Source: Echinarachnius parma (Eukaryota; Echinodermata; Echinoidea; Clypeasteroida; Echinarachniidae). From it: a stretch of DNA of 64,000 nucleotides. Of this stretch, positions 4,487-63,242 are shown one piece after another; the stretch's first letter is position 1; the number at the start of each line of letters is the position of its first letter. The notes under the pieces were generated by a model. It made no database searches. It was not told the DNA's origin and was given only the letters and a program-made list of their open reading frames with translations. Location of the stretch: NCBI GenBank assembly GCA_037951105.1, contig JBAMJV010007191.1, forward strand, positions 26,252 to 90,251, read 5' to 3'. Position numbers and translations under genes: made by a program.

Positions 4487-5480
4487 AGGCCCCCCCCCCC
4501 CCTCCCCCGGGGCGCGGGTGAGCGTAAATTCTTGTGGGCTTGTGCTCGTGCTATATGTAGGGTGACACGATATATGCTCCACCGACAAATGCTCCGAAAA
4601 ATGCGACAAATGCTGCGAAAAATGCGACAAATGCTCCGCGATATTTGCTCCGCCGACAATTGTTCCGCCGACAAAAGCTCCACCGACATTTAATCCGCCG
4701 AAAAATGCTCTGCCGACATTCGCTCCGCCGACAATTGCTCCGCCGACAAATGCTCCAAAGATGCGACAATTGCTCTGCCGACATTTGCTCCGCCGACAAT
4801 TACTCCGCCGACGCGATCGCGCGGGTGAGCGTAAATTATTGTGGGCTTGTGCTCGTGCTATATGTAGGGTGACACGACATATGCTCCGCCGACAATTGCT
4901 CCGAAAAATGCGACAAATGCTCCGCGACAAATGCTCCGCGATATTTGCTCCGCCGACATTTGCTCCGCCGACAATTGTTCCGCCAACAAATGCTCCGCTG
5001 ACATTTGCTCCGCCGACAAATGCTCCACCGACATTTGATCCGCCGACAAATGTTCTGCCGACATTTGCTCCGCCGACAATTGCTACGCCAACAAATGCTC
5101 CGAAGATGCGACAATTGCTCCGCCGACATTCGCTCCGCCGACAATTGCACCGTCGACATTTGCTCGGCCGACAATTGCTCCGCCGACATTTGCCATGCCG
5201 ACAATTGCTCCGCCGACATTTGCTCCGCCGACAATTACTCTGCTGACAAATTCTCCGAAGATGCGACAATCGCTCCGCCGAAAATGCTTTGAATATGCGA
5301 CAATTGCTTAGCCGACATTTGTTCCGCCAAAATATGCTCCGGAGATACGACATTTGCTCCGGTGACAATTTCTCCGCAGAAATATATGCTCTGAAGATGA
5401 CAGTACTTCAAATGGTCCAAAAACAAATTATGTTCCTCAACCATTATTGTTCCACCGACATTTACTCCGCTGAAGATTAA
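4487..5480. repeat. 15-bp minisatellite (ACAATTGCTCCGCCG / ACATTTGCTCCGCCG) with higher-order 307-bp repeat
   Basis: Dozens of 15-base units repeat head to tail, alternating AATT and ATTT versions, some diverged (ATGCGACAA variants). The block GCGCGGGTGAGCGTAAATT followed by a TATATGTAGGGTGACACGA segment occurs at 4512 and again at 4819, so the array also has a higher-order period of about 307 bases. Because 15 is a multiple of 3, any frame without a stop in the monomer stays open. This explains overlapping ORFs up to 295 codons on both strands, with 5-residue repeats such as SAEQL or GGANV. I do not call any of them a gene. Confidence 0.9.
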
Positions 5481-21810: not shown

Positions 21811-24287
21811 TTGTTTGTTTCGCATGACATATATGCACATTTTTTAAAAATTCAAGTCTAGGTTTCTCAGCCAGGTCAGAGCAGCATCTGTTGTCTGATG
21901 AATCCCCTGGAAACTATCAGGGAAACATCGGAGAGGGCAGTCATTTACCACATGCTTCACTGTCTGGTCTGGATTCCCGCAGTCACATGCAGGGCTGTCT
22001 TTCATTTTCCATCGATGGAGATGATGGGCTGACCTTGCATGGAGTGTTCTTATCCTGTTCAGAGCCACCCATTGCTTTCTGGGGAGATTGAATCCCACTG
22101 GCTCTGACGTAGGGTCCTGTACAAGGTCTTGGTTAGGGAAGTCGGACTCCGCCCAGGTGTTGCGCCATTCTCCTTTCAGGTCAAACTCTTTTATAGAATG
22201 GGTTGATAAATCCCTGCAATCTGGTTGGTTGAGAGCAAAATGTGTGCAGACAATTAATTGTACTGGATGCATGAAAAGTCATGCGTCCGGTAAAAAAAAC
22301 ATGCGTCCGGTAAAAATTTCATGCGTCCGGTAAAAATGTCATGCGTCCGGTAAACAAATTCATGCGTCCGGTAAACAAATCATGCGTCCGGTAAAAAAAT
22401 TCATGCGTCCGGTAAAACATTTCATGCGTCCGGTAACATTATTTAATGCATCCGGTAATTTTTCTACTTTTTTATTTTTTGACTTGTTGGGGGGCGTAAC
22501 AATGCCCATTCTATAAAACAGATGATGCGCAAGTTTATTTCGTGGGTCGGTGGAATTGTTTGCACGCGGTAACTATGGAAACTAGTCTAAACCCACTCGG
22601 CTTCGCCTCGTGGGTTTAACAGTTCCATAGTTACCGTGTGCAAACAATTCCTACCGACCCACTCATACCTGCGCATCATTTGTATACTAGAGACTTTGCA
22701 GAAGTCCAAAAGGGTGTCCGTGATTTAAGGCGCATTTTGGGTAGGTTCCCTAGGTCTTCGTGGATAGGTATGTCTGAGTTGGTGGAGGTGCGGTGTACTT
22801 CCTTGCGCATTATCTCCCGTCTGCGTACACCAGGGGGAGCGATGTGGGAGAGAGCAGGTAGCCATTGAAGAGGTGTTGACTTAAGGGTGCCAGTAATTAT
22901 TCTCATCGCTGAGTTCAAGATTACATCTACCTTCTTGGTATGGCAGCTCTCTGTCCACACTGGTGAGCAGTACTCTGCAACCGAGTAGACTAGTGCTATG
23001 CAGGCTGTTCGGAGGGTGTGTGTGCCTGAACCCCAGCTATTTCCTGCAAGTTTCCGGATAATGTTGACTCTGGTCTTCAGTTTTCCAGAAACCCTCTTGA
23101 GATGTTCACGATAGGTGAGGCTGCGGTCCAGCGTAACTCCAAGGTATTTGGGGAACTATTCATGCTTGACTGTTTTGCCACAAAAGGTGACCTTCAGTTC
23201 TGTTTTCGCTTGTCGGTTGCTGAGGTGGAAGGCAGTGGTTGTAGTCTTATTGGGATTTGGACGAAGGCGCCAGTAGGTGAAGTAGTCCTCCACCTTCTTC
23301 ATGTCCTCGGTGAGGGTTGTGCTAAGTACGTTGAAATCGGTGGATTGGGTAGCTAGTGCAAGGTCATCGGCATATGCAAATTTCCTGGAAGTGGTCTCCG
23401 GCATGTCACTTACATAGATGTTGAAAAGCATCGGGGCCAAGACAGATCCTTGAGGGAGGCCGTCGTTGAGGGTTCTAGCCGAGCTTGTTTGTCCTCCAAG
23501 TGAAACTCTGAATCTTCTGTTGCTGAGTATGGAAGCAAGGATGCGCATGGTTGTCTGACACTTGAAGATGTGGGAGGCTTTGAGTAGCAGGCCATGTCTC
23601 CATACAGTGTCGTAGGCCGATGAGAGGTCAATCAGTGCCACACCCGTTTTGAAGGCGCGCTGATATCCCGCCTCGATGAAGGTAGTGAGGGCTAGGACTT
23701 GGTCGGAACAGCTCCTTTTTGGTCTGAAGCCTGCTTGCTCCTTTGGTAGCACAGGTTCTACCAATGGGCTAAGCCTGACTAGAAGGAGACGCTCAAACAA
23801 TATGTAGGATGTGCACAGAACAGAGATGGGACGGTAGCTTGCAGGGTCATTCGCAGGTTTCCCTGGTTTAATGATCGCAATCACTTTAGCCTCTCTCCAA
23901 GGCTTTGGGATAACTCCGGAAGAGTGGATGTATGTGAAGAATGAGGCCAGCCAGCCGCGGCCTTTTGGTCCAAGGTTCTTCAGGAATTCTGGGTAGATTC
24001 CATCAATTCCCGCAGCTTTCCCTGATTTTGTGGATGAGAGACCAATGTCGACATCTTCTCTTGTGTAAGTTCTTGCAAGTGAGGAAGTCTTAGCTGATGT
24101 TGAGTAGGACTTGGAAAGGTTCTTCTTGACTTCTTTACGTGATGCATTTGTAGAAGGTACCTTGGAATTGAGGAGCAGGCGTGAATCAACAGCATTTGCT
24201 GTTACTTTAGGCGGTTGATGTTGAACCGGGGTTGCTGCTCCAAGATGTCGAAGAAGGTTCCAAGCCTTCGTGCTCGAGTGTGTAAAG
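21811..24287 (-). mobile_element. 5'-truncated LINE with near-complete RT ORF, split by a later insertion
   Basis: Read on the minus strand, one frame runs from 24287 to the stop at 21844. It contains GKAAGIDGIYPEFL (about 24015), ASYRPISVLCTSYILF, ALIDLSSAYDTVWRHG, DGLPQGSVLAP and the catalytic AYADDLAL (about 23370). The C-terminal domain follows (LVYSVAEYCSPVW, then RIRTLHARSAHHLHRW and a CDCG...HVVNDCP cysteine/histidine motif). Defects are one in-frame TAG at 23156-23158 and the 494-bp element at 22194-22687. Target duplication TTGC(A)(C/A)TTAACTT lies at 21798-21810 and 24288-24300. Copy B has the single uninterrupted site TTGCAATTAACTT at 38423-38435, so this is an insertion. The endonuclease part is lost by 5' truncation. 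It looks young. Confidence 0.93.
22194..22687 (+). mobile_element. Composite non-autonomous element with CATGCGTCCGGTAAA array, copy 1
   Basis: It is inserted in the LINE at TA (TA at 22192-22193 and 22688-22689). Removing 496 bases rejoins the LINE frame exactly. Order: TAGAATGGGTTGATAAATC at the left end; an array at about 22280-22460 of eight CATGCGTCCGGTAAA units (18-22 base spacing) plus a degenerate ninth; GCCCATTCTATA, which inverts the left end; then a long hairpin from GATGATGCGCAAGTTTATTT to GCGCATCATTTGTATAC with a small inner stem CCCACTCGGC...CGTGGGTTT. No ORF with homology. The second copy is at 62758-63242. Confidence 0.9.
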
Positions 24288-24300
24288 TTGCAATTAACTT

Positions 24301-32333: not shown

Positions 32334-33814
32334 GAATATGGAAAATACTGCTGAAAACTGCATGTCTACTAAAAAATCGCCAATGTGATAAAATGAGAGT
32401 CGTATACAGCCTAGCTTTCGATCCTAGCAGAATCTTCGTCAGGGCACAAATGACAGTAACTACAGAAAAAACACAGAATATATACCAACATAAACACATG
32501 TATGGAAGGGGGGCTGGAAAGAGGAAAGGAGGCGGAGACACAAAACAATGAAAGCAACTGTGAGTGGGTGAGTGTCAGGACTGCTTGACCAATCAGGTAA
32601 AAACAGGCATGGGTGGGTCCTTAAGTGGCTGCAGTCAAAGAAAATGTGATGAGAGTGTAAGGCTTAGAGAAGAATAGAGGTAGGGAGGATCAAAGAAATA
32701 AATCAAGAAATGGAAAGAGACATGTGAACAAAAGACAGTTGATGAGGTGTGGGAGTGCACTGGGGCATTGAGAGGGGAGGAACAATAGAGGGGATTATGA
32801 GTGTAGGGGATGGGAGGAGAGGATTAGGACAAAGAAAGTGAAGTGAAGTGTGTTGCAGGATCGGATGAATAGGATAGGCGAGATCAAAGGACAGGAGTTT
32901 AAAAGAGATAGTGAACAAAAGGAAGCCTAAATAGGTAGGTGATCAGAGGGAAGGTGGAGAGACAAATGAGGGTGGAACAATATGATCAAAATAGAGGTGG
33001 AACTATGCATGATGAGAATGTGGATGTATATGAATAAGCCCATGTCTATGGACAGTGTACCTATAGAGAGAAATTAAATGCAAAAAGTGTAACATATTAA
33101 TAAACTAACATGATTATGTGTATGAATGGTGACAGTGTATATAATGTAATCTCAAAGGAAACTAAAATGAATATATGGGGAAAATAAAATGGGAAATAAG
33201 AATATGAATAGTATGTGGAACAAAGTAAAGTGTCGATATGGGGGGCGAAAACAAACAAATGGTGGTGCAGACGATGAAGGGGAGATGCAAAGGTTAATCA
33301 CTGCCTTCTTGGATGTTGAGACCACGGGGATGAATGGTGCAGAGACGTCTTATCCAATACTTTTCTCTGCTGGAGCGGAGTGTGTCCGGGCGGTTACCTA
33401 GAGATTCTATTCCCTGTAGAATCATGTCAGAAATGGAGTGATTAGGTAGGTTGAAGTGGTTGCCGACTGGGGCGTCATGTTTGGAGGTGTGGATGGTGGA
33501 TCTGTGTCCGTAAAATCGTCTCTTGAGGGTGTTCCTGGTTTCGCCTACGTACTGCATGCCACAGACTCTGCACGTGATAAGATATACAACATTGGTGGTG
33601 GTGCATGTGATGTGGCCCTTGGTATGGTGAGAGATGTTGTTGGAGTGGCTGGTGAAGGTTTCATCCTGATGGATATGTACCTGACACACAATGCATCTGT
33701 CGGCGGTGCACTAAAAGGTGCCTTGCTGTATGGGAGAGGGGTTGTTATTGGGGGTGGGAAGTTCAGCTCGAACAATGTCTGGAATAACAATGTCTCGAAT
33801 AACAATGTCTCGAA
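32334..33814 (-). mobile_element. 5'-truncated Penelope-like element (PLE) inserted in copy A
   Basis: It is flanked by TAATCTCTGGAAT at 32321-32333 and 33815-33827. Copy B has the single site at 42424-42436, so this is an insertion with a 12-13-bp target duplication. On the minus strand it holds the C-terminal GIY-YIG part of a PLE, then a ~950-base 3' region containing CCCTGACGAAGATTCTG and GATCGAAAGCTAGG. The reverse transcriptase part is missing through 5' truncation. Short TCTCGAATAACAATG tandem units sit at the truncated end. Confidence 0.9.
33294..33689 (-). pseudogene. PLE GIY-YIG endonuclease domain fragment
   Basis: The 131-codon frame contains VVYLITCRVCGMQYVGET (GIY-YIG core in its PLE form), LKRRFYGH with the conserved arginine, and SSREKYWIRRL with the expected glutamate, then PRGLN, the usual end of PLE proteins. 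Upstream, the same frame continues through C-x5-C (CTADRCIVC) of the PLE linker but is cut by TAG at 33711-33713. PLEs use this nuclease to nick target DNA for reverse transcription. Lacking RT, this copy is dead. Confidence 0.9.
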
Positions 33815-33991
33815 TAATCTCTGGAATATCACACATCAGTTAAACAGGACTTAATCAACCAAGTAAATTATTTTAGTTATATGCCGAGTGTGTCAAATGT
33901 GTCGATACCCACGGTTGAACGGAGTTCGAATTCTTAAACCAGATGCGCAGTTCGCAGTGGTCCCCTTTAAGGTATTTTCTTAACACTTATA

Positions 33992-34545
33992 CAGGGTGGC
34001 CCAGAAATAACGGAACGGGGCACTTCCCAAAATAAAGTCACAAAATGAAAATGTCCATCGGATAGGGTGTCCTTTCCAATGAACAACGATACCAAGAAAA
34101 CTAATTTTGGACGTGTAGTTTTTGTTTTAGGGCGCTTTGAGTGAGACCATGTCAGGTTCTTATTTTTGTCAATTTTTACCAAGTCAGTGTCTGATAAATG
34201 AGACTTACTGCCCGCCATACTATTTTACTACCAATTATGTCCATTCTCTCGGCACCGCTCGGCACACAGCTGAATGCACACTAACAATGGCGCGCTGAAT
34301 ACTCGCGTGTACAATGGTATGTAGGGCAATAAGTCTCATTTATCAGGCACTGACTTGGTAAAAATTGACAAAAATAGGAACCTGACATGGTCTCACTCAA
34401 AGCGCCCTAAAACAAAAACTACACGTCCAAAATAAGTTTTCTTGGTATCGTTGTTCATTGGAAAGGACATCCTATCCGATGGACATTTTCATTTTGTTAC
34501 TTTATTTTGGGAAGTGCCCCGTTCCGTTATTTCTGGGCCACCCTG
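33992..34545. mobile_element. mariner-type foldback MITE with ~225-bp inverted repeats
   Basis: Starts CAGGGTGGCCCAGAAATAAC and ends with its reverse complement. The arms pair over about 225 bases with only a handful of mismatches, leaving a ~100-base loop. TA is duplicated outside (33990-33991, 34546-34547). Copy B carries the empty site CACTTATATAACCTGAC at about 43139. No intact transposase. The ORF on the left arm is a repeat by-product. Confidence 0.93.
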
Positions 34546-34547
34546 TA

Positions 34548-35119
34548 TAACCTGACAATGTATCAATCGTATTAAGAGAAAAACTACATAGTCAAGTCAT
34601 GAACTATTGACAATGAGATGTTAGTTTACAAATTCTTCTGTATTATTTTATAAGAAAAAAAAAACATTTTAAAATCGAATATGGGGATAGATTTTAGATG
34701 AGCTCCATCAACAAATACTTCTTCTAAATCATTGAAATCTGTATTTTTGTCTTTGAACAAAAATACACCTCGTATATGATTAATGAAGGATACGACACTT
34801 GCCGATGAGGCTTAGTAAACAAATTTACCCAATATAAATCAAACCACAACATAACCAACCGGATCAAGACACAATAATGTTGAACAGCTAGCTAAACCCA
34901 AACAAAGGAAGGAATGAAGCATCATCTGGTTTAATCGTCTGAAGTTAATCTGCTTAATGCTGAACAATGACGATTTATATTTGATGTTGATGTTTGATCA
35001 GAAACGTTCGAAGATACCGCAATTATGTTAATAACAAAGGAGATGTTTGTATAAAAGTGAAGTGGGTGGCTTGTTTACATTTTGCATTATATATGGCGTG
35101 AATATGGCGCGTGTCATTA
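34548..35119. other. Copy A segment, gene-free
   Basis: Matches B 43150-43734 closely. No exon seen. Confidence 0.55.
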
Positions 35120-35470: not shown

Positions 35471-37605
35471 AATAAAGGGAGTAAAGTTCATCGGGCAATT
35501 TTGTAGATATAAGGGCTCTTCCCCCGGATGTAATGTCTATGCAAATTATTTATTACGTTTGCATAAACATAAACAATTTCTTTAACTCCAGCTACCGAAT
35601 AGAGTTGGATCCTAAATCTCGTTTGATCAACGTTGAATCACTTGTTTACTGATATATTCGCATTTGTTTTGTTGTTTACATTTTTCGCTGTGACGGTTCG
35701 CTGCCTACCATTGTGTTGTACAAAGCAGCAGGTTGGGGCTTGACACAAGCTGTCTCAATTGACGTGCTTGTGAATCATCAAATAGTGAACTGACATTAAA
35801 TTTAACATAGTATTATAAAGCCTCTTCGTTACAGGTGCCGAATATCCCTGGATTACGTAAGGCCTCTTTATTTCTTCATCTCTTCTTTGCTCTATACACG
35901 CTGTATTGTTTTGATAATTATAGATATTACTAGATATAGATATAGATATAGATAGCTAGTATCAGCCGTGTATTAATATATGTTTACCCTATCTCTAAGA
36001 ATATGTCAAACTGTTACAATCTTAGGTTTGGCAACACTTCAAGCTTCCGGCTTATATTGCCAGACCTTATGTTTCTATTTCGATGGTTTGACAGTTTATT
36101 TTATGTACGGCATTTATTTGTTGTGAGACATGCAGAAATATAATACATACATATTAAAACAAGAAATTGTGCACGCATGTTAAGTTATGTTTTAATGAAT
36201 ATTATAACCTACATGAATGAAATCCTGTTCAGTAGCGTCATGTGACCAAACATAGTAATGCCCATGGAGAAAAATGTGCTATGCGTGACGTCATTCATGG
36301 AATAGTAAATGCTATTCCATGAATGACGTCATAGACGCCGGGTGATCATAATGAGCCCATAGAGATGCGTGTTATAAAACTACCCTGCGAGAAGAGATCA
36401 TTCTTGTTTTAGCTTGCGAAAGATGTTCGACGAGAAACATACGCAAACAGAACAAACACACAGAGGTCGGGGGTTTTGAATCAAATGAATAAAACAAAAC
36501 AAAGAAGTACACACAGGATGAATCATGATGGTATTGATTGAAGATCAAATATATAAAGAATTATTGAAAAACAATTTGTTGAAATTAATGAGATTGTATT
36601 ACTTATAACAAATCAGTGTGAGTTAAATGCATAATGTGTACTTGTTATGTTTATGGGCAATATTTAACCTTAGAATAGCACAACAGTAGACAAAACGTTT
36701 TATGAATACATACAAGTTGAGAACAATTCAAAAATTATATACAAAAAATAACATTCGAGTATCAGACCAATGCCTTATGTGCGAAATCGGGCGCCTCTAA
36801 ATGAATAAGAATACTTATTGAGCAATATAAGTACTGCTCTTCATTACACAATCAAAAGCCCATTAACATGATTAACGAAAGAAAATACTCTTGAAGTGAT
36901 AATGAATGTAGCGAAGGGCACTTAAAACAAATCGCTAAATTGGAATGATCGAATCGTCAGTTCAGCTGCTGTGTTGAAGAATTTGAACATGAAATCCTTT
37001 AATTTAAAAACAGCATTTGGAAGAGCCACATTATTCCTTATTGGTTATATTGTTGTGATTTTGTCTTGGAATTTAATTTAATAATAATTATTATTATTAT
37101 TAATTTATTTTAATTTATCTGCTGTATTTTGTCATATTTATTATTCCATGTTGCTGCTCATTATCGTTCAACCATTTCAACCATATTTTGTTTATGATTT
37201 GAGGCACTATTAATACGATTTATTACATATACCATTTATACATGTCTAGTTTACGTGCTAACCTGTACATCTAAAAGGCTGCCCGTAAAGTGTCTAACTC
37301 CACGAATGTTACTCGGAGCTTCGTCGTTTCACTTCTGCCGTGTTGTTTAGCTTAATGGTAAGAAAAGAATATAATAGGGTTACATTTGTTCAAATGCCCC
37401 TTTAGTACGACGACATCTATCATTCAGCTCCAAAGCTTTAATTAACGGTCATGAATCTCACACACGTCCCTTGTAAAACCTGACGCAATTTTTCGCTTTT
37501 TTAACAAGAAAATCAGTGTTCTTTTTCAATGAAATGTTTACACTTCATTCGGCTATATTTTACATGATTTGGGTATAGGATTGAAGTCTCAAATCATTTT
37601 TGATC
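35471..37605. other. Copy A segment, gene-free
   Basis: Includes GATATA repeats at 35934-35952, a palindrome at 36286-36331, and ATT-rich simple sequence near 37080-37110. Matches B 46159-48200 except at 36205-36430, where A and B carry different sequence. Confidence 0.55.
36286..36331. repeat. Perfect 20-bp-arm palindrome with two TGACGTCA sites
   Basis: TGACGTCATTCATGGAATAG at 36286-36305 is exactly inverted at 36312-36331 with a 6-base loop. TGACGTCA is the CRE consensus. The block is missing from copy B. Confidence 0.8.
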
Positions 37606-49804: not shown

Positions 49805-50525
49805 TTCAAATTTGTTTTTTGTTAATAAATTTGTTTTTATTTGAGTGTTAACTAATTTGAAATTAATTGAATTGTTTCTGGAAATGTAGTTATCACGATG
49901 TTATGTTCATTAAATTATATTATGTATGTTATCGGTTACTAGTAATCAAAATAACAGGCAATTTGAAATCACGTTAGGAGAGATATATTACAAATTTTAA
50001 ATATGTTTTGTTTTCCTTTTGTATGACCGTTTGACCTTTGTCCTTGGGTGATCATTCTTAAATGCAAAACGGTAGTGTAATCCATTATTTTAAACAGAAA
50101 CGACAATAAATCATAAATTGAATTGTATATAGCCAACTTGGCTGTATACAATTCAATCAAATGTAGGGTGAGGCTTCATGATCAAATACATAAATATCTC
50201 ATACTTCGTTTTCTCATCTATCAATGTTAACCATGATTATTGTCGTTTCTGTTTCAAATAATGGATTACACTACCGTTTTGCATTTAAGAATGATCACCC
50301 AAGGACAAAGGTCAAACGGTCATACAAAAGGAAAACAAAACATATTTAAAATTTGTAATATATCTCTCCTAATGGGAGTTCAAATTGCCTGTTATTTTGA
50401 ATACTAGTAACCGATAACATACATAATATAATTTACTGAACATAACATCGTGATAACTACATTTCCAGAAACAATTCAATTAATTTCAAATTAGTTAACA
50501 CTCAAATAAAAACAAATAAAAAAAA
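49805..50525. repeat. Large inverted repeat, ~300-bp arms, with inner hairpin
   Basis: 49805-50112 is reverse-complemented at 50232-50525 with few differences (blocks CAATTAATTTCAAATTAG, CATTTCCAGAAACAATTC, GGACAAAGGTCAAACGG). The ~120-base centre carries a second hairpin, ATTGAATTGTATATAGCCAA and its near-exact inverse at 50118-50158. Overall it is a foldback; target site not resolved. Confidence 0.88.
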
Positions 50526-62571: not shown

Positions 62572-62757
62572 CTTCGGATAAATCAAGACAACTATGTTAT
62601 TGTTTTCAAGTCTATAATGTTTGTGCTCACGTTATTTTTTACCTCATGCTTCTTTATATCGCTTACTTAATCATATCCATTGAAATGAGTGTTGTTCTCT
62701 TTTGTCTTCTTCTTATTCACATTGTTATTATTACTATCGGTATTATTCTTATTATTA

Positions 62758-63242
62758 TAGAATGGGTTGATAAATCTCTACAATCTGATTGGTTGAGACG
62801 CAAAATTTGTGCAGACAATAATTGTACTGGATGCATGAAAAGTCATGCGTCCGGTAAAAAAATCATGCGTCCGGTAAAAATGTCATGGCTCCGGTAAAAT
62901 TTTTCATGCGTCCGGTAAACAAATCATGCGTCCGGTAAAAAATTTCATGCGTCCGGTAAAAAATGTCATGCGTCCGGTAAAATTATTTCATGCATCCGGT
63001 AATTTTTCTAATTTTTAATTTTTTTGACTTTTTGGGGGGCGTAACAATGCCCATTCTATAAACAGATGATGCGAAGTTTATTTCGTGGGTCGGTGGAAGG
63101 TGTTTTGCACGCGGTAACTATGGAAACTAGTCTAAACCCACTCGGCTTCGCCTCGTGGGTTTAACAGTTCCATGTTAAACAGTTACCTTGTGCAAACAAT
63201 TCCTACCGACCCCCACTCATAACCTGCGCATCATTTGTATAC
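62758..63242 (+). mobile_element. Composite element with CATGCGTCCGGTAAA array, copy 2
   Basis: TA at 62756-62757 and 63243-63244. Same order as 22194-22687: TAGAATGGGTTGATAAATC, eight 15-base units at about 62838-63003, GCCCATTCTATA, then the hairpin ending TTTGTATAC. It lies in the intron between two EGF exons. The arrays of the two copies differ in unit spacers, while their flanks are nearly the same. Confidence 0.9.

Follow-up and report, generated by a model that had tools for sequence, protein, structure and literature searches.

A high-copy, non-coding mobile element of Echinarachnius parma with a phased 14-mer array, a long terminal hairpin and a TA^CTR target, probably of Helitron2-like type

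Which kind of mover places one and the same composite structure, a tandem array of 14-mers followed by a long hairpin, at two unrelated sites within a single 64,000-nucleotide stretch of the Echinarachnius parma genome? This stretch (contig JBAMJV010007191.1 of assembly GCA_037951105.1, positions 26,252 to 90,251 of the forward strand; hereafter the window) carries the structure at 22.2 kb (copy A) and at 62.8 kb (copy B). The two copies align over their full length (22192-22687 with 62756-63242: 452 bases match, 21 differ and gaps occur in 10 runs; the ungapped identity is 95.6%), and their flanks outside the unit bear no relation to each other. The observation of the original prediction, namely one structure at unrelated sites, is thereby confirmed. 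The structure is a ~500-base non-coding mobile unit with hundreds of copies in the 1.2-Gb assembly of 14,790 contigs. We consider it, with a probability of roughly 75%, to be a young, high-copy, non-autonomous transposon of the Helitron2-like type, which would move by a rolling-circle mechanism via a Rep protein of the HUH class. The parts of the two copies are as follows:

22191..22686, plus strand: copy A, 496 bp, TTATAGAATGGG...TTTGTATA, with ends set by empty copies of the host long interspersed nuclear element (LINE) and by empty sites in other hosts
22191..22202, plus strand: 5' asymmetric inverted repeat TTATAGAATGGG, 12 bp, with its exact inverse at 22505-22516
22260..22273, minus strand: degenerate unit in inverted orientation, CATGCATCCAGTAC, bounding the array on the left, with 3 mismatches to the 14-mer
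22280..22458, plus strand: array of copy A, 8 exact 14-mers CATGCGTCCGGTAA and one degenerate CATGCATCC-type unit, with a period of 20-22 bp
22505..22516, plus strand: 3' asymmetric inverted repeat CCCATTCTATAA, directly ahead of the hairpin
22518..22683, plus strand: 3' hairpin of copy A, 71 base pairs as folded, with its tip around GGCTTCGCC
62755..63241, plus strand: copy B, 487 bp, with flanks TTATTA^ and ^CTAATC
62844..63002, plus strand: array of copy B, made up of 6 exact units, a unit with 2 changes and a degenerate terminal one
63050..63061, plus strand: 3' inverted repeat of copy B
63063..63238, plus strand: 3' hairpin of copy B, 69 pairs as folded, eroded by indels

The predicted inverted repeat pair TTATAGAATGGG/CCCATTCTATAA and long hairpin are both real: with RNA parameters the minimum free energy of the hairpin is -113 in copy A (100 mononucleotide shuffles: -39 +/- 5) and -85 in copy B (shuffles: -42 +/- 5). 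At up to 3 mismatches the 14-mer has 20 matches in the window, while 100 shuffles average 2.9 and reach 13 at most. The estimate of about eight array units holds for the exact 14-mers of copy A, to which a ninth, degenerate unit has to be added; copy B has six exact and two variant units. The inverted degenerate unit CATGCATCCAGTAC sits ahead of the array in both copies. As had been anticipated, there is no transposase inside the element. A Pfam scan of 29 distinct open reading frames (ORFs) among the 116 of at least 75 aa in the window recovered neither a transposase nor a Rep, and the domains over the cut-off were reverse transcriptase, GIY-YIG and EGF domains. An Rfam scan of the window at the gathering threshold gave 0 matches. 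Copy B adjoins EGF-domain coding stretches of a host gene (61.7-62.6 kb, minus strand).

A genome search with copy A returned 1220 first-look candidates; the 40 that were scored span at least 1-493 of 497 bases, and 39 of these best 40 are 96-97% identical to copy A. The junction of 3' inverted repeat and hairpin (CCCATTCTATAA, 0-3 bases, CAGATGATGCG) occurs exactly 755 times genome-wide, and adjacent pairs of the 14-mer 4001 times, with 0 matches for the reversed-pattern control in each case. We compared the first 100 places of each of the two patterns over their shared contigs (C2 to C173): among the matches listed there, 19/19 junctions have an array upstream on the same strand, at 69-171 bp, and 19/21 arrays have an exact junction. 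Both end motifs are present in 30/30 fetched loci, which represent 28 distinct insertions, two loci sharing flanks with another. Because all 19 listed junctions carry the array, array and hairpin move as one element. Thus, the predicted composite mobile unit stands as regards its common ends, array and terminal hairpin, and the array was not found mostly apart from the hairpin; what does not stand, as detailed below, is its TA duplication and Tc1/mariner affiliation. The 28 copies lie on average 0.8% from their consensus, with copy A the most distant at 3.0%. Being the best scoring of the 1220 candidates, copy A included, this sample is biased towards copy A; the sampled copies spread recently, in a sample that favours well-kept copies. 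Outside this genome, the 15-mer had 39 single matches in viral_contigs, where longer patterns had 0, and at least 116 matches in genome_contigs, with no array around any of the 155 loci (including the 39 of viral_contigs). A search of open-licence PMC papers for the motif and end sequences as letters matched just unrelated papers.

The ends of the element follow from comparing filled with unoccupied sites. The following two features of the window serve this comparison:

21844..24298, minus strand: LINE (reverse transcriptase) split by copy A, with one more in-frame stop near 23156
36233..36399, minus strand: palindromic host repeat, the empty site for locus L176; it shares 98.2% identity with the joined flanks and reads GCATTTA^CTATTCC

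As originally proposed, excision of copy A, here of 496 bp, restores the LINE frame, while the boundaries themselves had to be corrected to those listed above for both copies. Over at least 238 of 240 bases, the joined LINE flank agrees with all 40 scored LINE copies (the best 40 of 490 candidates), and at the ten empty LINE sites read at the junction the sequence is CTCTT^CTAGAG in 9/10 and CTCTT^TTAGAG in 1/10. The host repeat of L175 has 12 unoccupied homologs, six of them within the window, which read ^CT in 11/12 and ^TT in 1/12. The empty site of L181 reads AAAAA^CTGTTTCC (beginning CTGTTT), and that of L178, where T is the first 3' base, is found in L179 (96.9% identity) as ATACAA^TGGTAA. 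These empty sites were read for copies whose first 3' base is C or T. From them it follows that copy A spans 22191-22686 without target duplication. Hence, the TA bordering the element, which had been taken for a target duplication, is not duplicated. An interim reading of our own, insertion between T and T, was likewise overturned by the empty sites reading ^CT. A dispersed repeat with at least six copies in the window (13191, 17948, 19927, 26191, 54950 and 60876) includes several that are homologous to the L175 host repeat.

Filled sites read A or T, then TTATAGAATGGG...TTTGTATA, then CTR. In the 28 best-scoring insertions the 3' flank has C21 A5 T2 at its first position, T27 G1 at the second and G17 A11 at the third; in copies taken in contig order, of which 18/20 have an intact 3' end, the counts are C11 A5 T2, T17 C1 and G10 A8. 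Pooled over these 46 insertions, position 1 is C, A or T, position 2 is T in 44/46 and position 3 is a purine in 46/46. On the 5' side the last base of the flank is A20 T5 G3 in the 28 insertions (TA in 12/28) and A10 T5 in 15 ends from 16 fetched 5' regions; the element itself starts TTATAG in 27/28 of the best-scoring insertions and in 14/15 of the latter ends. The target is thus a consensus, TA^CTR, strict at T and R and loose at the other positions.

Several targets lie in palindromes. At an inverted-flank score of at least 21 we count 4/28 targets, against 84/4546 [A/T]T^T[G/A] sites of the window and four loci; both flanks and control were cut at the older T^T, and 3 of the 4 targets belong to one host repeat family, so that insertion into palindromes is suggestive only. 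L165, L183 and L185 are insertions between the arms of one host palindrome, TGCCATGTAACA...TGTTACATGGCA, and L176 lies in the loop of another. A preference for hairpin loops as target is possible.

In its layout of parts the element resembles several described groups. Helitron2 elements, as described by Bao and Jurka (2013; PMC3627910), begin with a T and carry asymmetric inverted repeats of 8-15 bp. Their 5' repeat lies 0-2 bp inside the element, while the 3' repeat is followed at once by a hairpin and is ~20-30 bp away from the 3' end; a 5' hairpin makes use of the 5' repeat. The target, TTTT^T/C, is family-specific, and no duplication occurs except in CRe-1, 2, 3. Our element matches this description in its 12-bp inverted repeat, 0 bp from the 5' end as set by the empty sites; in the inverse repeat directly ahead of the 3' hairpin; in its T start and lack of both coding capacity and duplication; and in having a target particular to the family. 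The Helentron likeness noted in the original prediction also holds up. Helentrons and their non-coding interspersed relatives (HINEs) have 12-15 bp subterminal inverted repeats and a palindrome at the 3' end (PMC4067079), and together with the oyster Cg_HINE and Pearl elements share with ours the central tandem repeats, high copy number and absence of duplication (PMC4067079, PMC7492417). As these sources describe them, however, the repeat unit of the oyster clusters is ~140-180 bp as against ~20 bp here (PMC7492417), and the palindrome of mite HINEs, at 5-10 bp, is far shorter (PMC4067079, PMC7492417). The FoHeli elements of Fusarium share asymmetric inverted repeats and an A/T-rich 5' target side, TNAT^ in their case, but are described with a 3' target side other than CTR and are protein-encoding elements of 5-11 kb (PMC5148889). 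Helitron1, with 5' TC, 3' CTRR and insertion between A and T (PMC5148889), differs in that our element has 5' TT and 3' GTATA, and its CTR belongs to the target. The 71-pair hairpin, the array with its 20-22-bp period and the strictly chosen target are unusual.

Candidate movers of this type are encoded in the genome: Helitron_like_N is matched 52 times, in many cases within open frames. In the frames printed, GSPH, the Helentron-type motif (PMC4067079), occurs in L204, L210, L212 and L215, and GLPH in L186, L193, L196 and L197.

Several observations weigh against a Helitron2-like assignment or against the ends on which it depends. The 3' repeat lies ~170 bp from the end rather than the 20-30 bp described for Helitron2 (PMC3627910), because the hairpin is long (arms of ~75 bp). 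The target is TA^CTR, which is neither the TTTT^T/C of Helitron2 (PMC3627910) nor the T-rich or TT target described for HINEs, Cg_HINE and Pearl (PMC4067079, PMC7492417). Further differences from the Helitron2 description (PMC3627910) are the phased 14-mer array and a 5' hairpin that is weak or absent: the GGG of the repeat can pair downstream at -3.8 kcal/mol, and 9-40% of shuffles are at least as stable at the four lengths tried. At the L167 site, the sequence of a diverged homolog (83%) is CATA^TCATAA against the occupied ^CTATCA, without duplication and with the C not seen, and both L178 and the LINE copy L229 fit the older parse, TATAG...GTATA plus one base, equally well. Around two Helentron-type Rep copies, three pieces of flank from C2449, 18 kb in total, and 8 kb from C7572 contain no end motifs beyond three 7-base TAGAATG matches; the similarity between these two Rep copies runs on through an upstream LINE, so that the element ends are not reached. 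The tip ATTATAGAATGGG with a next base that is not T has 40 sites against 24 in the control, none, as judged by eye and for this tip form, on a contig with a Rep match. Neither these flanks nor the tip sites yielded an autonomous copy with these ends. Since one described measure departs and no partner was found, the element is best called Helitron2-like and not a proven member.

As to the mover, the rival with the best prospects, though still an unlikely one, is another that leaves no duplication, such as a Crypton-like tyrosine recombinase, an IS607-like serine recombinase or some other enzyme, in which case the Helitron2 likeness would be convergence. Absence of duplication, a strict short target and the lack of a linked Rep gene would all suit it. 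On the other side, tyrosine and serine recombinase elements are described as being without terminal inverted repeats, and the tip repeat, its inverse before the hairpin and the T start make up the full Helitron2 set (PMC3627910); furthermore, Rep genes in open frames do exist in this genome.

It is improbable that the element is an ordinary Helentron HINE inserting between T and T, as oyster Cg_HINE and DINE-1 do. The same layout of parts (PMC7492417, PMC4067079) and the Helentron-type Reps of this genome would favour it, and, empty sites aside, most copies can be read as ...T[element]T.... T^T insertion, which those accounts give as the hallmark of Helentrons and HINEs, is contradicted by the unoccupied homologs, with ^CT for the LINE host, the L175 host, L176 and L181, and the invariant purine at 3' position 3 also speaks against it.

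MITEs (miniature inverted-repeat transposable elements) of the Tc1/mariner type have a TA target duplication and terminal inverted repeats at both outer ends. The predicted affiliation with them can be set aside almost completely: although the 3' flanks of copies A and B start with TA under the earlier parse, only 11/28 and 8/18 insertions (19/46 in all) do so, the unoccupied homologs show no duplication, and the tips TTATAGAATGGG and TTTGTATA are not inverse to each other, the inverse copy lying ~170 bp inside. Chance nesting of an array element and a hairpin element, co-copied as a segmental duplication, is equally remote: each half does have its own inverted repeats, but every listed junction carries the array, there are 755 exact junctions, and the flanks differ between copies.

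On the favoured Helitron2-like reading, with its presumed polarity, a Rep/helicase encoded elsewhere would act in trans and recognise the 3' hairpin end. It would nick at TTTGTATA^HTR and displace a single strand across the element as far as the 5' inverted repeat. The strand might then be joined into a target nicked at TA^CTR, and therefore no bases would be duplicated. The hairpin end may read or re-create the target, as in the bacterial IS91, which inserts beside a fixed short target at one end without duplication; our element resembles it in choosing its target adjacent to the 3' end and in lacking duplication, and differs from it in host and target. In L169 the insertion point of one copy falls exactly behind the TTTGTATA with which a second, diverged copy ends at its 3' side, which is the arrangement expected if the TTTGTATA end re-creates the target. 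The element end may be marked where the 5' copy of TTATAGAATGGG pairs with the 3' one (an idea taken from PMC3627910). Finally, the phased 14-mer array could serve Rep, or a host factor, as a set of iteron-like binding sites.

What bears on such a role is the distribution of changes over the array. Of the variants common to at least 2 of the 28 copies, the 53 bp of spacer hold 11 and the 126 bp of core 0; the 88 bp of the 5' region have 0, the 57 bp that follow the array 2 and the 172 bp of the hairpin region 3, two of these three being the 3' base now assigned to the target. Private changes number 11 in spacers, 7 in cores, 7 in the 5' region, 8 after the array and 12 in the hairpin region. 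The ratio of shared to private changes thus differs between spacers (11:11) and cores (0:7) at p=0.026, and between spacers and all else at p=0.0025; these p values are nominal, and the sample consists of the best-scoring copies with copy A among them, which weakens the case for constraint. Spacer length is nearly constant: among the 100 matches listed of the 4001 pairs, where 2-10 bp were allowed, it is 6 bp in 59, 7 bp in 40 and 8 bp in 1, giving the period of 20-22 bp, or nearly two helical turns of B-DNA. Both core CpGs are present in all eight exact units of copy A. There are also recurrent T-to-G changes in spacers of different units (consensus positions 127, 147, 168 and 209), in combinations that are mixed between copies, as if by spacer exchange or repeated mutation. 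An early reading from copies A and B alone, with cores constrained and spacers free, lost force once the spacers of the consensus turned out to be more uniform, and only the contrast between shared and private changes was kept.

We favour, at about even odds, the view that the cores are constrained as putative binding sites in the mobile lineage. Not far behind, at somewhat less than an even chance, is the alternative that the array is a captured minisatellite without function, in which mutation is simply faster in the AT spacers than in the cores. It accounts well for the private changes, which are also more frequent in spacers (11 in 53 bp) than in cores (7 in 126 bp; nominal p=0.007) and so count against constraint; because of them, part of the core/spacer contrast is due to fast mutation of AT tracts. 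Captured satellite repeats are, moreover, known inside oyster HINEs (PMC7492417). It accounts less well for the differing ratios of shared to private changes, the near-constant spacer length and the intact core CpGs. A more specific proposal, which we hold to be doubtful, is a rolling-circle lineage whose non-autonomous members combine an iteron-like array (14-bp sites at two helical turns, selected for mobility), a plasmid-like oversized hairpin at the end that reads the target, and strict TA^CTR insertion. If it were true, an iteron-loaded origin would initiate transposition, much as in plasmids of the rolling-circle or theta type. Such an origin would, to our knowledge, be new for eukaryotic Helitron-like elements.

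The Rep genes of the genome have features of their own. L186-L196 are Helitron1-type genes (GLPH in the three printed), ~99% identical, most with open frames of ~1000-1200 aa, and their N-terminal part has a tandem repeat of ~23 aa (69 bp), the copy number of which varies among the printed copies. L204-L209, with the Helentron-type motif in the printed L204, have open frames of ~1600 to 4700 aa and are 99.4-99.9% identical to L204; they are probably recently active giant Helentrons. On C2449, 51-bp (17-aa) tandem repeats lie upstream of Rep. One junction among the first 100 of the 755 listed, C1019:166167, lies ~14 kb downstream of the Helitron1-type Rep L196 (C1019:151820) on the same strand, probably by chance. 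Two pairs of ATTATAGAATGGGG sites on one strand, C2563:24222/24430 (208 bp apart) and C11475:27974/28343 (369 bp), perhaps represent another family.

The window has further repeats and one further ORF, listed here for completeness:

4625-5257: 15-bp minisatellite CGACAATTGCTCCGC in ~41 copies, with several reading frames open on either strand
33297-33710, minus strand: ORF with a GIY-YIG domain, perhaps a Penelope-like remnant
33987-34550: palindromic element with 242-nt arms, 96% complementary, starting TACAGGGTGGCCC, and TA at both edges, which resembles mariner-type ends
49829-50517: long palindrome with 281-nt arms, 98% complementary, sharing ATTTGTTTTTATTTGAGTGTTAACTAATTT near the edge

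Helitron2-like elements are hard to delimit, as their ends look arbitrary. In the present family the ends are exact, the target preference is sharp and the copies run into the hundreds, many with little divergence, and with these both the site of strand transfer and the function of the internal array become testable. Its insertion sites suggest that T^T is not the sole target of such elements, and its array suggests that the satellite-like arrays inside them may be functional parts acting in cis and not passengers.

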